NCBI GenBank assembly: GCA_017798125.1
Contig: CP059070.1
Location: 1,426,001 to 1,490,000 of the forward strand
Direction: 5' to 3'
DNA length: 64,000 nucleotides
From: Cryomorphaceae bacterium
GTDB taxonomy: Bacteria > Bacteroidota > Bacteroidia > Flavobacteriales > ECT2AJA-044
Positions 29,680 through 34,890 of this stretch are shown here, piece after piece (within the stretch, counting starts at the first letter, position 1; every line of letters begins with the position of its first letter). A program made the position numbers and the translations under genes. Under the pieces are notes generated by a model. That model was not told the DNA's origin, made no database searches, and was given only the letters and a program-made list of their open reading frames with translations.

Positions 29680-29877
29680 GGTTTTGGTTTAAGATGCTTC
29701 AATTAAGCATAGGTTTAAAGGAAGTACGAGAATAACTTAACATGGGTTAGTTGCCGAAAATTTGTAATTTGAGGTCACTGTTCAGGACGTTGAGCTGCAC
29801 TGAACTTAGCTATGTCTTCCCTCTATGCCCTGAACCGCCATGGGTAATGGAGATTGTATTGGCTAGGAAATAGTAGC

Positions 29878-32355
29878 ATGGAACAACTGAAAACATCGGC
29901 ATTTACCTCCTTCGAGCATCTCCCATTACCGGTGCTGATTATCCACAACGGACTTGTTGTTTATACCAATGAAGCGTATCTAGAGCTTCGAGATCGGGAA
30001 GATTCCCTAGTAGGTCTGAAGACCGTCGAATTGGATGAATTCATCATTCCTCCAGATTTACACTGCATGATCGCGGACCTTGATGATCACTCTACCAAAT
30101 CCATTGAATATTCTTTCTTGAATCGCGATGGTCTCGTCAGATGGGAAAGTGCCAATGGAAATTCAACTTTTATAGAAGAGGTAGGTGAGTGTAAAATCAT
30201 ATTGTTTGAAGACTTAACCAGCAGAAAGAAAATTCGCGTAGGCTCTGGCCTCTGCAGCGTTCCCACTCCAGTATTTCATAAGGATCACAATGGACGATTC
30301 ACCATAGTCAATAAATCTTTTTGTGCCTTTTTCGGCTTGACCGAAGAAGAGATTCTGGGAAGAAGATTTGAGGATTTAGGATTCATGTCAGAAGATGAAT
30401 CGCTTCAAGAGTCTGATGCTCAGCTCATGCGCGGTGAAGTAGAGCAAGTTGAGTACTCCTTACGATTGAATATCAAAGGAGAAAGCCGTCGGGTTGAGGT
30501 GTGTAAGAAAGCCGTTGTTGACGAAGAGGGTCATGCCGTAAGTATTGCGGGGTCTTTTACGGATCGTACCGAGCAGGATAAACGACTTCAAGACCTAATA
30601 CGATATCGTCATCATTCAGAACAAGCGATGTCCATCGGTGAAACCGGAGCTTTTGAATTCGATTCGGAATCCATGACCATGTATTGGGAACATCCTCTTA
30701 CGAGTGAGTTGTTAGGTTTCCCCAGCGAAAAACGTTCGTGTACTCCGAAAGAACTGTGGGCTAACTTTTATGAGGAGGATCAGGAATGGTTAGCACCTCA
30801 TTTTGATCACTTTTGGGAAAAGGACCCTATTGACTTTAGGCACAGAATTTACACTGCGGAAAAAGAAATCCGATGGCTCCGAATTCAAGGCCGTGCGGTA
30901 ACTGGCATCGATGGAAAGACAAGGTACTTGGGAGTACTTCGGGACATTACGGAAGCGCGCTCTTCCCGTCTCGAATTGAAGGAAACGCGAAACAGACTTC
31001 AATTACTGATGGATAGCATGGGTCATATGATCTATTCCGTTGATCGATCATATTGCTTGAGAGAGTATAACCGAGAACTCGTGAATAGTTTTCATGCCTT
31101 CTCTACTCAAAAGATCACTGCGGGTATCAATATGACTGAGCTCGACCAACTTCCCCAGGACTTCAATATTCGACTCAAGGGTTATTTTGATCAAGCCTTT
31201 CAAGGTGAGGAGCAGACCGGGACGGAAGTTGTTGATTTGGGCGACTCAGGTGCGCTCTCCTTCAAATACAACATTGGTCCTTTATACGGTCTAGACGGAA
31301 AGGAAATTATTGGAGCGATTTCCTATGTGGAAAACATATCAAGTGCAGTCAGCACTAAAAAGGAGCTTGTTCAGACGGAACAACGCTTGCAAAATATGAT
31401 CAACAGCATGGGGCATATGATCTATGCGGTGGATCGATCCTATTGTTTGAAGGATTTCAACGCTGGTTGGGAGCAGGCTTATGAGTTCTACTACGGAAAA
31501 CAGCCCGTCAAAGGAGCTAATATTCTCGAGTTCCAGGAAATCCCTCAAGAGCTCAGAAGCCGGTTTAAAGAATATTACGACAGCGCTTTTGAAGGTAAAG
31601 AGACCAGATTTGAAGAGTACGTTCCGAGGGATGAAGAACAAGGACTCTATGCAGAAACTACTATTTTACCCATCCGAGATGCTGAGGAGTCAGAAGTACT
31701 AGGTGCGGTGGTGTATGTTGAAGATGTTACCCACAGAGTAGAAGCCGAAAAACGATTGAAATCAAGCGAAGATCAGCATCGAATTATATCCGAAAACATG
31801 CCCAACGTGCTTTGGCAGGCTGACAAGGATGTAAACGTGCAATATGTCAATCCAGGAGGGTTGAAGATGCTGGGATTGGATAATCCCAAGTTCGGACCTG
31901 AAAAATGGGTAGACATTATTCATCCTGATTTCATGGATGCACTTCACGCTAAATGGGGTGAGTGCATTCAAAATAAATCCAACTACGAGTTGGAAGTCAA
32001 GATGAAAGTTGCGAGTGGCGACTACCGTTGGTTCAAGTCCTTCGCGACACCTTTCTTAAACAATGAAGGCGAGATAGAAAAGTGGATCGGATTGTCAATT
32101 GACGTTCATGATTTGAAAGTGGCATTGACGGAACTTGAACGGACCAACGAACGCTTAAGAGAAATATCCTGGGTTCAATCGCATGAAATGCGCGCCCCAC
32201 TCGCCCGAATTATGTCTTTGGTCGACCTTTTGGACCCTTCGGCGAGCGATTTTAATGAAATTCGGAACTACCTAATGGATGCTTCGAATGAACTGGATAG
32301 GGTCATCAAGCGCGTGGTTTTGGCGGCTCGATCCATGGAAGATTTGGATTTGTAA
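29878..32355 (+). CDS. Multi-PAS sensor protein with a DHp-like helix but no kinase domain
   Basis: 825 residues from ATG 29878, no signal peptide or membrane helix. I see about six PAS-type modules near 8-100, 125-235, 250-365, 375-490, 505-625 and 635-755; the fourth and fifth are near-duplicates (DSMGHMIYSVDRSYCL and NSMGHMIYAVDRSYCL). The last 60 residues (ISWVQSHEMRAPLARIMSLV) resemble the histidine phosphoacceptor helix of a sensor kinase with His769. The protein then stops and the next gene begins 93 bases later, so no HATPase catalytic domain exists. It may be phosphorylated by another kinase or act only through PAS-mediated binding. Lower GC than its neighbours and no GATG hairpins. 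Confidence 0.88.
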   Translation: MEQLKTSAFTSFEHLPLPVLIIHNGLVVYTNEAYLELRDREDSLVGLKTVELDEFIIPPDLHCMIADLDDHSTKSIEYSFLNRDGLVRWESANGNSTFIEEVGECKIILFEDLTSRKKIRVGSGLCSVPTPVFHKDHNGRFTIVNKSFCAFFGLTEEEILGRRFEDLGFMSEDESLQESDAQLMRGEVEQVEYSLRLNIKGESRRVEVCKKAVVDEEGHAVSIAGSFTDRTEQDKRLQDLIRYRHHSEQAMSIGETGAFEFDSESMTMYWEHPLTSELLGFPSEKRSCTPKELWANFYEEDQEWLAPHFDHFWEKDPIDFRHRIYTAEKEIRWLRIQGRAVTGIDGKTRYLGVLRDITEARSSRLELKETRNRLQLLMDSMGHMIYSVDRSYCLREYNRELVNSFHAFSTQKITAGINMTELDQLPQDFNIRLKGYFDQAFQGEEQTGTEVVDLGDSGALSFKYNIGPLYGLDGKEIIGAISYVENISSAVSTKKELVQTEQRLQNMINSMGHMIYAVDRSYCLKDFNAGWEQAYEFYYGKQPVKGANILEFQEIPQELRSRFKEYYDSAFEGKETRFEEYVPRDEEQGLYAETTILPIRDAEESEVLGAVVYVEDVTHRVEAEKRLKSSEDQHRIISENMPNVLWQADKDVNVQYVNPGGLKMLGLDNPKFGPEKWVDIIHPDFMDALHAKWGECIQNKSNYELEVKMKVASGDYRWFKSFATPFLNNEGEIEKWIGLSIDVHDLKVALTELERTNERLREISWVQSHEMRAPLARIMSLVDLLDPSASDFNEIRNYLMDASNELDRVIKRVVLAARSMEDLDL

Positions 32356-32389
32356 ACCGCCAAATTGAATAGGAATTTCTGAGTCCGAA

Positions 32390-32406
32390 CATCGAGCCGT
32401 AGGCTC
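32390..32406 (-). repeat. GATG-hairpin family copy, intergenic
   Basis: Minus-strand GAGCC TAC GGCTC GATG, perfect stem, between the PAS gene and the YfhO-like gene (43 bases before the latter). It is the only clear copy outside coding sequence, showing that the element is not a by-product of a protein motif. No T run follows, so it is not a classical terminator. Confidence 0.8.
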
Positions 32407-32448
32407 TTAAAAATCCATACCTTAGGGCCTAGCTAGAAACCACTGGGT

Positions 32449-34890
32449 ATGAAACAAATTTGGAAGCAAGCTTGGCCGCACGTCTTGGCGGTCATTTTAT
32501 TTTTAACCCTCGCCTTTGCTTATTTTACTCCGCTCTTGGAGGGAAAGGTGTTGTTCCAGAGTGATATCGCCAATTACCGCGGTATGAGTAAGGAAATTTG
32601 GGACCATCGCGAGGCCTTCGGAGAGGAGCCGCTTTGGACCAATTCACTTTTTGCCGGAATGCCCGCATACTTCAACTCGGTGCGGTATCCGGGGAACTTG
32701 ATTCACACCGTCTTTTTTGAGCCTGTTAAGGCCATTCCCGCCCCTGCGAATTACCTCTTTTTACTTTTTGTCGGCTTCTACATTCTACTGGCCGGGCTTA
32801 AATACAATCCTCGGCTTTCCTTTGTCGGGGCACTGGCCTTCGGACTGTCGACGTACTGGTTCCTCATTATGGAAGCCGGGCACAACAATAAGACTTGGGC
32901 CGTGGCTCTTTTTGCTCCCGTATTGTTGGGGATATTGACCGTGTTCCACCGCAAAAAACTGCTGGCAGGTGGTTTGATTGCCGCCTTGGCACTGGCTTGG
33001 GAGATCGATGTGAACCACATTCAGATGACCTATTACTTGGGTATCGCGGTGTTCTTGCTCGGGATATTTGAATTGGTCGAGGCCATTCGAAAGAAGACGC
33101 TTTTACATTTCGCTAAGCAGGTCGCTGTTCTCTTCTTGGCCTTGGGATTGGCCGTTGGGGCTAATGCGAGTCGCCTCATCACCAGCTACGATTATGGAAA
33201 ATACAGTACACGTGGGAAGTCGGAGCTGACCATTGACGATGTTGCGGGAACGAATAAGACCGATGGATTGGATCGGGACTACATCACCGCTTGGAGCTAC
33301 GGGATCGCAGAAAGCATCAATGTCTTTATTCCCTATTTCATGGGTGGCGCCAGCACCGAGCCTTTGGATTCGGATTCGCACATGGGTGAGGCCCTTCGCG
33401 GCCGAGTGCCCAATCCGCAGCAGGTACTGGAGAATATTCCAACGTATTGGGGAGATCAACCCTTCGTGGTCGGTCCGTACTATATGGGCGCCGTGGTGAT
33501 CTTTCTCTTCTTCTTTGGACTCTTCTTTATAGAGGGCCGATACAAGTGGTGGCTCCTGGCAACTACCATCTTGATCTTCGCGCTCTCCTGGGGTAAAAAC
33601 CTCATGTGGCTAACAGATCTGTTCATCGACCATGTGCCCATGTACAATAAATTCCGAGCGGTGGCTTCCATCTTAGTCGTAGTGATGCTCACCCTTCCGC
33701 TGTTGGGTTTTATGGCTTTGAGAAAGCTCTTTTACGATGAGAATGTCGACACGGACGGGGCTATGAAGGCACTCAAAATCAGCGCAGGAATCACCGGTGG
33801 GTTCGCCTTGTTGATGGCTTTGATGGGTGGAAGCCTTTTCGATTTTGAAGGCCTTCGTGATGATGCCTTCGCCAATGCGGGTTTGCTTGGAGATTTGATT
33901 GCCGATCGCAAGGCCCTTATGCGGGCCGATGCCTGGCGTTCCTTCATCTTTGTACTCTTATCGGGCGGTGCGCTCTGGGCGTTTTTAACCGGAAAGATCA
34001 AGAGGGAAATGGCCCTAGGAGGATTGGCTTTGCTCATTGTGGTCGATTTGTGGACTGTAAATAAGCGCTACCTAAATGAGGAGGATTTTGTTCCGAAAAG
34101 ACGAATGGAAAGCCCCTTTACTGCGACCGCTGCCGATCAGCAAATCCTTCAAGATCCGGACATCAACTATCGCGTCTACCACTTGGGCGAGCGGCTCGAT
34201 GCCGGTGCACGTACAGCCTACTTCCACAAATCGCTCGGAGGATATCACCCGGCCAAATTGAAGCGCTACCAGGAGCTCGTGGACAACCAAATCAACCAGC
34301 GAAATCAGGCGGTGATTAATATGCTCAACGTCAAGTATTTCTTGGTTCCCGATCAAAATACAGGACAGCTGCGCGCTCAACAAAACCCCGGAAACTTGGG
34401 AGATGCTTGGTTCGTTGAAGAGGTGCAGATGGTGCCGAATGCCGATGCTGAAATGACGGCCTTGAACTCCTTTGACCCAGCCAAAACCGCGATTGTCGAC
34501 GAGCGCTATGCCGATCAACTTGAGGGGATCACGATTAAAAAGGACCCGAACGGCATTATCCGCTTACAGGAAATCAAGAGCAATAGGCTGGTCTATCAAA
34601 CCAATGGTTTCACAGATCAGGTTATGGTTATGAGTGAAATTTACTTCGGCTATGAAGGCCGAGGGTGGAATGCCTACATCGATGGTGAGCCTGCCGATCA
34701 CTTCCAAGCCAACTACGTGCTGCGCGGAATGGTCGTCCCAGCGGGTCCTCATGTGATTGAATTTAAGTTCGAGCCCGAATTGTACTACACCGGAGAGAAA
34801 ATCTCCTTGGCCAGTAGCGCGATCCTGCTGCTGGGAAGCATCGCTCTGCTTTTCATGCAGTGGCGCAAAACCCGTGAGGAAGAGGAATGA
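32449..34890 (+). CDS. YfhO-family multi-pass membrane protein
   Basis: 813 residues with about 12-13 membrane helices in the first 530 and two near the C-terminus (SLASSAILLLGSIALLFMQW). LEGKVLFQSDIANYRGMSKE and EEPLWTNSLFAGMPAYF are typical of the Bacteroidota branch of YfhO, a GT-C-like glycosyltransferase fold; the Gram-positive members take part in glycosylating cell-wall polymers. GHNNKTWAVALFAP and WEIDVNHIQMTYY look like conserved loops. Between the helix blocks lies a soluble beta-rich domain (about 570-770). The stop overlaps the next start as ATGA, so it is linked to the glycosyltransferase that follows; envelope glycan synthesis is the likely role. Confidence 0.82.
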   Translation: MKQIWKQAWPHVLAVILFLTLAFAYFTPLLEGKVLFQSDIANYRGMSKEIWDHREAFGEEPLWTNSLFAGMPAYFNSVRYPGNLIHTVFFEPVKAIPAPANYLFLLFVGFYILLAGLKYNPRLSFVGALAFGLSTYWFLIMEAGHNNKTWAVALFAPVLLGILTVFHRKKLLAGGLIAALALAWEIDVNHIQMTYYLGIAVFLLGIFELVEAIRKKTLLHFAKQVAVLFLALGLAVGANASRLITSYDYGKYSTRGKSELTIDDVAGTNKTDGLDRDYITAWSYGIAESINVFIPYFMGGASTEPLDSDSHMGEALRGRVPNPQQVLENIPTYWGDQPFVVGPYYMGAVVIFLFFFGLFFIEGRYKWWLLATTILIFALSWGKNLMWLTDLFIDHVPMYNKFRAVASILVVVMLTLPLLGFMALRKLFYDENVDTDGAMKALKISAGITGGFALLMALMGGSLFDFEGLRDDAFANAGLLGDLIADRKALMRADAWRSFIFVLLSGGALWAFLTGKIKREMALGGLALLIVVDLWTVNKRYLNEEDFVPKRRMESPFTATAADQQILQDPDINYRVYHLGERLDAGARTAYFHKSLGGYHPAKLKRYQELVDNQINQRNQAVINMLNVKYFLVPDQNTGQLRAQQNPGNLGDAWFVEEVQMVPNADAEMTALNSFDPAKTAIVDERYADQLEGITIKKDPNGIIRLQEIKSNRLVYQTNGFTDQVMVMSEIYFGYEGRGWNAYIDGEPADHFQANYVLRGMVVPAGPHVIEFKFEPELYYTGEKISLASSAILLLGSIALLFMQWRKTREEEE

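Follow-up and report, generated by a model that had tools for sequence, protein, structure and literature searches.

A PAS sensor protein of a Cryomorphaceae bacterium that ends after its DHp domain, and a class of single-domain receivers as its candidate partner

The sequence of a Cryomorphaceae bacterium indicates that a sensor protein with about six PAS modules ends directly after a DHp domain that keeps its phosphoacceptor histidine. The protein is encoded in the window, by which we mean the whole stretch of 64,000 nucleotides that was analysed. It is one member of a large family of DHp proteins in related bacteria that lack a catalytic domain (CA-less), and thus is probably a sensory step in a relay and not a defective kinase. 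Computed support comes from the domain order, the end point common to the family, the conservation of the histidine, the loss of signature residues, and the linkage, fusion and co-occurrence with RR2, one class of single-domain receiver. With modest confidence, we favour a model in which the window protein, controlled by its PAS modules, serves RR2 as a sensory histidine phosphotransfer partner or as a phosphate drain. Specifically, the PAS modules would read a signal and thereby determine which state is adopted by a DHp dimer that lacks a catalytic domain. His769 would then exchange phosphoryl groups with RR2: it would accept one from the phosphorylated receiver, and this group would be either passed onward, as in a relay, or drained; the phosphate sink proposed in an earlier note on this DNA would be one of these two directions. 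Dimerization of the DHp domain and phosphorylation of the histidine are presumed in this model, as are the direction of phosphoryl flow and what lies downstream.

The gene and its immediate surroundings comprise the following features.

29878 to 32355, forward strand: gene of the sensor with about six PAS modules and a DHp domain, without HATPase; 825 amino acids plus stop, alternative TTG start at 29854
29878 to 32133, forward strand: PAS array, six segments scanned one by one against the Pfam PAS families
29878 to 30262, forward strand: N-terminal PAS segment, weak (0.018)
30241 to 30603, 30601 to 30993, 31366 to 31749 and 31747 to 32133, forward strand: clear Pfam PAS segments
30988 to 31365, forward strand: fourth PAS segment, blank in Pfam and identified solely as a duplicate of the next module
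32134 to 32352, forward strand: DHp (HisKA) helical hairpin, from Pfam on the tail and an AlphaFold model
32182 to 32184, forward strand: codon of His769 (numbered from the ATG), the conserved phosphoacceptor position
32353 to 32355, forward strand: stop codon TAA, 56 residues past His769
32356 to 32448, forward strand: intergenic gap of 93 bases
32449 to 34890, forward strand: next gene, an 813-aa ORF, outside the system as far as seen

The open frame runs uninterrupted from the ATG at 29878 (or the TTG at 29854) to the TAA at 32353-32355 over 825 codons. The protein contains SWVQSHEMRAPLARIMSLV, in which the histidine is residue 769, and around this phosphoacceptor it reads His-Glu-Met-Arg-Ala. 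Pfam finds no HATPase in the window sensor protein, and none of the HATPase_c places of the genome (E 0.01) falls inside the 64-kb window. The gap behind the gene has stops in all three forward frames and, at 93 bases, leaves no room for a catalytic domain downstream; the 813-aa ORF that follows has a congener counterpart with 81% identity. Measured against a sensor histidine kinase (HisKA-HATPase), the HisKA domain with its phosphoacceptor histidine is present and the HATPase required C-terminal to the DHp domain is absent. The earlier note had described a sensor that stops after its phosphoacceptor helix, free of a frameshift and followed by a gap too small for an HATPase, and each of these points is borne out. 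Its placement of the histidine at residue 769 also holds, while its count of 57 residues from there to the end has to be lowered to 56.

The end of the protein coincides with the end of a folded unit. HisKA (PF00512) is matched over profile positions 10-62 of 66; the whole protein scores 24.3 bits, below the cut-off of 26.9, and the tail alone scores 28.4, above it. An AlphaFold model of the tail (32056-32352, with 68 relatives) has a mean pLDDT of 91.6 and shows a complete helical hairpin with helices at model residues 18-44, 46-58 and 66-98, which suggests that the protein ends after a finished DHp domain and not in mid-domain. No Hpt model is among the eight Pfam families that the window protein matches up to E 1, and NCBIfam returns PAS and generic regulator matches, with the PAS model alone above its cut-off. 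As for the sensory part, four of the six segments match Pfam PAS families, with the N-terminal one matching weakly, and modules four and five are visible internal duplicates of each other (GHMIYSVDRSYCL and GHMIYAVDRSYCL, window 30988-31749). Since the fourth segment thus duplicates the fifth, the original estimate of about six PAS modules is reasonable. Within the same interval, GHMIY..VDRSYCL occurs twice, in PAS modules four and five.

The same end point recurs throughout the close relatives of the window protein. The profile used for this comparison (A1) spans only the DHp domain and a few residues after it, so that a trailing HATPase would carry no score penalty. Among 60 relative genomes (the window's own included), for which nearly all candidates were scored, 14 are matched at 1e-8, and nine of these reach 1e-15 or better; the loci of at least this strength that were read from the nine genomes end as the window protein does, except for one with a receiver behind the DHp domain. 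In a phylum sample of 395 genomes, 240 have a match at 1e-6, and in all 30 top-scoring genomes of these 240 the best locus stops 51-74 residues past the histidine. At most 14 DHp and 10 RR2 candidates were scored per genome in this sample, which makes absences there soft. A set of 94 members was then defined by a score of at least 55 bits and a complete end, with identical cores merged (the window protein and loci L032-L225; it includes the 30 best loci of the top genomes and 40 further listed rows). Of these, 92 stop 51-78 residues past the histidine and two continue into a receiver. Lower-ranked matches, including long-tailed kinases, are only partly sampled in this set, and some of the regions were picked because a receiver stood near the DHp domain; tails of HATPase length occur only in weaker relatives below 55 bits. 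Several CA-less members can share one genome, with at least 11 in G079 and at least eight in G163.

A tree of 134 DHp domains (72 columns, rows labelled by tail length rather than by Pfam) groups the two DHp-receiver fusions with 98 of the 100 short tails on one side and places all 30 long-tailed rows, those of HATPase length, on the other. The separating branch is weak (support 69/57), so that a single origin of the short-tailed clade is likely rather than proven. The two short-tailed rows on the long-tailed side are L211 and L131_119; the latter reads as a kinase, comes to a stop and is followed immediately by an HATPase-like ORF. The nearest DHp relatives of HATPase length are the SHNLRAPLSN kinases of the same phylum, which have about 209 residues after the histidine, a catalytic domain read from length and sequence rather than from Pfam, and likewise RR2 behind them. 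A plasmid search with the whole sensor was little informative, giving 640 records, every one below 60% identity. On the Emticicia oligotrophica plasmid pEMTOL02 (L283 3284-4621), a relative annotated as 'PAS domain S-box protein' has a c-type cytochrome-domain gene on one side and a glycoside hydrolase gene on the other. The placement of the window's genome in Bacteroidota agrees with one named relative from Cytophagales and with a match to PorX (T9SS) at 833.9 bits, against a cut-off of 300 that none of 14 control genomes reaches. The sole match of a contig scan, L031 of Rhodopirellula, was rejected as a relative, as the linker had been matched and the frame is diguanylate cyclase-like by eye.

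These data bear directly on whether the window gene is what remains of an ordinary kinase, either recently truncated or decaying as a pseudogene. The congener, of which one draft genome was searched, lends this some colour. One of its CA-less genes contains an in-frame stop and codes for Tyr at the position of the histidine; in a second, the PAS homology and the DHp homology fall into separate frames, which makes a frame break probable. Moreover, the congener slot that corresponds to the window gene is occupied by a different signalling gene, so that the window gene cannot count as a conserved ortholog; this slot (L251, G001:C32, 6123-7222) has REC and kinase-like readings in two overlapping frames and is flanked by a cytochrome-peroxidase-like gene and the 813-aa ORF. 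However, the window frame itself is intact, its end point is common to the best loci of 30 genomes, which already contradicts a truncation, and short tails cluster apart from long tails, albeit across a weak split. Close relatives with an in-frame catalytic domain, which the earlier note had named as the mark of a truncated copy, do not appear among the strong relatives, which stop at the same place. Based on the shared end point and the tree, we rule out a truncation and assign it a very low residual probability.

The residues around the histidine provide a second line of evidence. Across the 94 members, the histidine is retained in 93 and the Arg at H+3 in all 94. An acid at H+1 is present in 30, the window copy with its Glu among them, and missing in 64. 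No member has Thr or Asn at H+4, a position taken by Ala (56), Arg (14), Lys (11), Gly (8), Ser (3) and Gln (2); the window protein, with Ala, thus departs from the H-E/D-x-x-T/N phosphatase signature. In HisKA proteins, according to passages of PMC3510030, the acid after the histidine is required for autokinase activity and the Thr or Asn at H+4 for phosphatase activity. Retention of the histidine together with the frequent or complete loss of the signature residues makes the family look like a phosphoryl carrier rather than a kinase or phosphatase. However, the long-tailed SHNLRAPLSN kinases likewise have neither the acid nor the Thr/Asn, which means that these residues by themselves do not mark the absence of an HATPase.

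The same pattern informs a reading in which the window protein would lack kinase activity and serve as a phosphatase of phosphorylated RR2. Receivers can be dephosphorylated by HisKA domains, and passages of PMC5847659 suggest such a role for the archaeal 'HisKA, no HATPase' look-alikes. Nevertheless, the residue that HisKA phosphatases require at H+4, as stated in part of PMC3510030, is found in none of the 94 members, and we consider this reading improbable.

Another reading holds that the DHp domain is not phosphorylated and only docks or heterodimerizes, thereby holding or inhibiting a receiver or kinase in the manner of DivL or RetS. A structural search with the DHp domain gave no match at E 0.001 or better; DivL ranks first (E 0.018, 27% identity) in a list whose top ranks mix kinase structures with unrelated helical proteins, and RetS is among the PDB matches of the DHp profile (E 0.002). 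The Tyr in one congener copy would also agree with a histidine-independent role. Yet the gene of this copy has a stop codon within its frame, and among the 94 members, which are diverse, all but one retain the histidine. We therefore view a regulator that is not phosphorylated as rather unlikely, and the conservation of the histidine also weakens the suggestion of a pure ligand sensor without phosphochemistry.

The earlier note had further raised phosphorylation in trans. In this reading, as spelled out here, the DHp domain would pair with a complete kinase present in the cell, and the HATPase of that kinase would phosphorylate His769. Split CheA systems provide a precedent for such a reaction. 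The Glu at H+1 of the window copy could make it a substrate of a foreign catalytic domain, and kinase-like readings stand near the CA-less DHp gene in several neighbourhoods. In the genome, 30 HisKA places are found at E up to 1, and 27 of them have an HATPase_c place close behind. The other three are the window gene, L024, which has 205 residues after the start of its HisKA match, and L028, which is unlike a kinase, and the window gene alone among the 30 ends right after the DHp domain. L024 (G000:C1:1943248-1943433) is a degenerate kinase in its own right, with Arg in place of the phosphoacceptor histidine (SRDVREP) and about 200 residues behind it that give no HATPase_c match at 0.01. Against phosphorylation in trans stand the missing acid in 64 of 94 relatives and the lack of a close long-tailed DHp relative in the genome, where the window gene alone matches the family profile at 1e-8 or better; a mixed four-helix bundle would accordingly join dissimilar halves. 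Bare HATPase proteins are likewise missing from the 34 HATPase_c places of the genome (E 0.01), all of which sit in open frames of at least 352 aa. As such, phosphorylation in trans is weakened by these data; we regard it as unlikely overall and as less likely than exchange with a receiver.

Exchange with a receiver, the preferred reading, rests on RR2, which stands directly behind many CA-less DHp genes and in which the receiver Asp, Ser and Lys are invariant (14 of 14 sequences, alignment A2). RR2 lies directly downstream in 20 of the 91 members with enough room, at gaps of -11 to 105 nt, and, by hand count, in 11 of the 30 top genomes when only the best locus of each is taken. Conversely, 13 of 14 stand-alone RR2 genes are directly behind a CA-less DHp gene, in 40 neighbourhoods that were chosen around DHp genes. 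In two proteins, the RR2 receiver is naturally fused behind the DHp domain. The two components also co-occur. Among the 60 relatives, RR2 at 1e-20 is found in all nine genomes with a DHp match at 1e-15 and in seven of the 51 others (one-sided Fisher 8e-7), and in the phylum sample RR2 at 1e-30 is found in 37 of 38 DHp-bearing genomes and in 38 of 357 others (8e-30), p-values that overstate the case because the thresholds were fixed after the tables had been seen and the genomes share ancestry. A model of a DHp-receiver fusion has a mean pLDDT of 91.6 and a pTM of 0.59, with an unsure linker (101-108) and a docking geometry of histidine and receiver that is unreadable.

The association is neither universal nor exclusive. 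RR2 is absent directly downstream in 71 of 91 relatives and beside the window gene, and of 20 weaker relatives whose tails are as long as an HATPase requires, 13 also have it behind them, so that it is not exclusive to CA-less proteins. The RR2 class appears to belong to the wider DHp family, with the CA-less members having kept it. In the window's genome, one orphan RR2 (G000:C1:1324813-1325199) scores 121.7 bits, with the runner-up at 84.1, and no match of the DHp profile lies in the 16 kb around it; we infer that this receiver is the window protein's own partner. Its gene is overlapped at the end, by 4 bases, by a gene (L176 8197-8997) that we take to be FRG-domain-like, and a functional link between the two is possible. 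In the congener, the RR2 ortholog (L252, G001:C66, 7554-7925) is 55% identical, sits at a contig end and keeps its place, with six upstream genes at 73-90% identity; its invariant receiver Lys is gone, the Lys-Pro having been replaced. Parallel decay of the DHp genes and of RR2 in this one draft genome would fit a functional pair. Thus, a response regulator of matching distribution, which the earlier note had proposed to look for, is at hand as an adjacent, fused and co-occurring class. The interpretation in the earlier note as a whole is supported in part: the common end point and the receiver speak for it, and its alternatives of phosphorylation in trans and pure sensing have lost ground.

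The wider gene context offers a framework for how such a pair might be embedded. In seven of 18 neighbourhoods, a receiver (presumably Rcp1-like), a REC-DHp protein and RR2 follow in succession. The REC-DHp proteins have an N-terminal REC and a C-terminal DHp domain; six are about 340 aa long with a PAS domain and one has 222 aa. In 11 such proteins, every N-terminal receiver retains Asp and Lys, with the acidic pair altered in some. A kinase-like reading stands ahead of the set in six of the seven, with the HATPase confirmed by Pfam for L114 only. The stretch that separates CA-less sensors from RR2 in G163 and G079 contains a CheB/CheR-PAS gene and a kinase, a pair checked by Pfam in G163 only; CheB-CheR-PAS genes near CA-less sensors are L181 2073-5507 (by Pfam) and L183 7930-11280 (by sequence). 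These sets are putative parts of a His-Asp-His-Asp relay. For the Bacteroidota clade of PAS sensors more generally, we tentatively propose that the signal may enter the relay at the histidine step, with many CA-less sensors of one cell sharing or competing for few single-domain receivers and gating or draining phosphate that originates elsewhere.

The architecture itself is not new, as archaeal and P2CS proteins of the same build are already catalogued. The window protein has the features of the 'HisKA, no HATPase' class, namely sensor domains, a C-terminal HisKA with its histidine and no HATPase. Such proteins were noted for Archaeoglobus in 2005 (in a passage of PMC1183210), and archaeal PAS/GAF-HisKA proteins without HATPase have been suggested to act in phosphotransfer or as phosphatases; REC-PAS/GAF-HisKA versions exist, their partners are stated to be unknown, and look-alikes are misannotated as kinases (passages of PMC5847659). 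The P2CS database, as described in part of PMC2716373, counts proteins that have HisKA but neither HATPase nor receiver among the phosphotransfer proteins and also has a class of 'possible incomplete histidine kinase'. The PAS/GAF sensors, C-terminal HisKA, retained histidine and missing HATPase are shared with these entries, so far as the passages describe them. In contrast to the archaeal class, a receiver partner is proposed and the phosphatase residue absent here, and the likeness is one of architecture to proteins described from archaea. In a search of literature listings, no description in print of the Bacteroidota clade, its residue pattern or the RR2 link was found. A CA-less DHp protein cannot be its own kinase, so that counting it as one inflates kinase numbers and hides a relay step. 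The proposed partner class makes the partner question for 'HisKA, no HATPase' proteins testable with two small proteins.

Among individual systems, Spo0B and ChpT appear alike as DHp-type histidine carriers in relays. Both retain a degenerate catalytic-like domain and lack a PAS array; the former feature is absent from the window protein, which ends after the DHp domain. The atypical kinases DivL and RetS, the structural and the profile match of the window DHp domain, respectively, use DHp-based control of other two-component proteins and keep an ATPase-like domain. PhyK and LovK of Caulobacter and PhyT of Sphingomonas, which are of the HWE/HisKA_2 kind, appear alike in placing a DHp phosphotransferase behind a single-domain receiver. 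Together with the receivers MrrA and SdrG, they would be the nearest worked example for the preferred mechanism. Specifically, passages of PMC5964349 and PMC5898713 describe PhyK, LovK and PhyT as phosphotransferases in the alphaproteobacterial stress response, to which the single-domain receivers MrrA and SdrG donate. PhyK and LovK keep the ATP-binding part that is gone in the window protein, whose DHp domain is of the HisKA type, and autokinase activity is dispensable for the role of PhyK, according to parts of PMC5964349.
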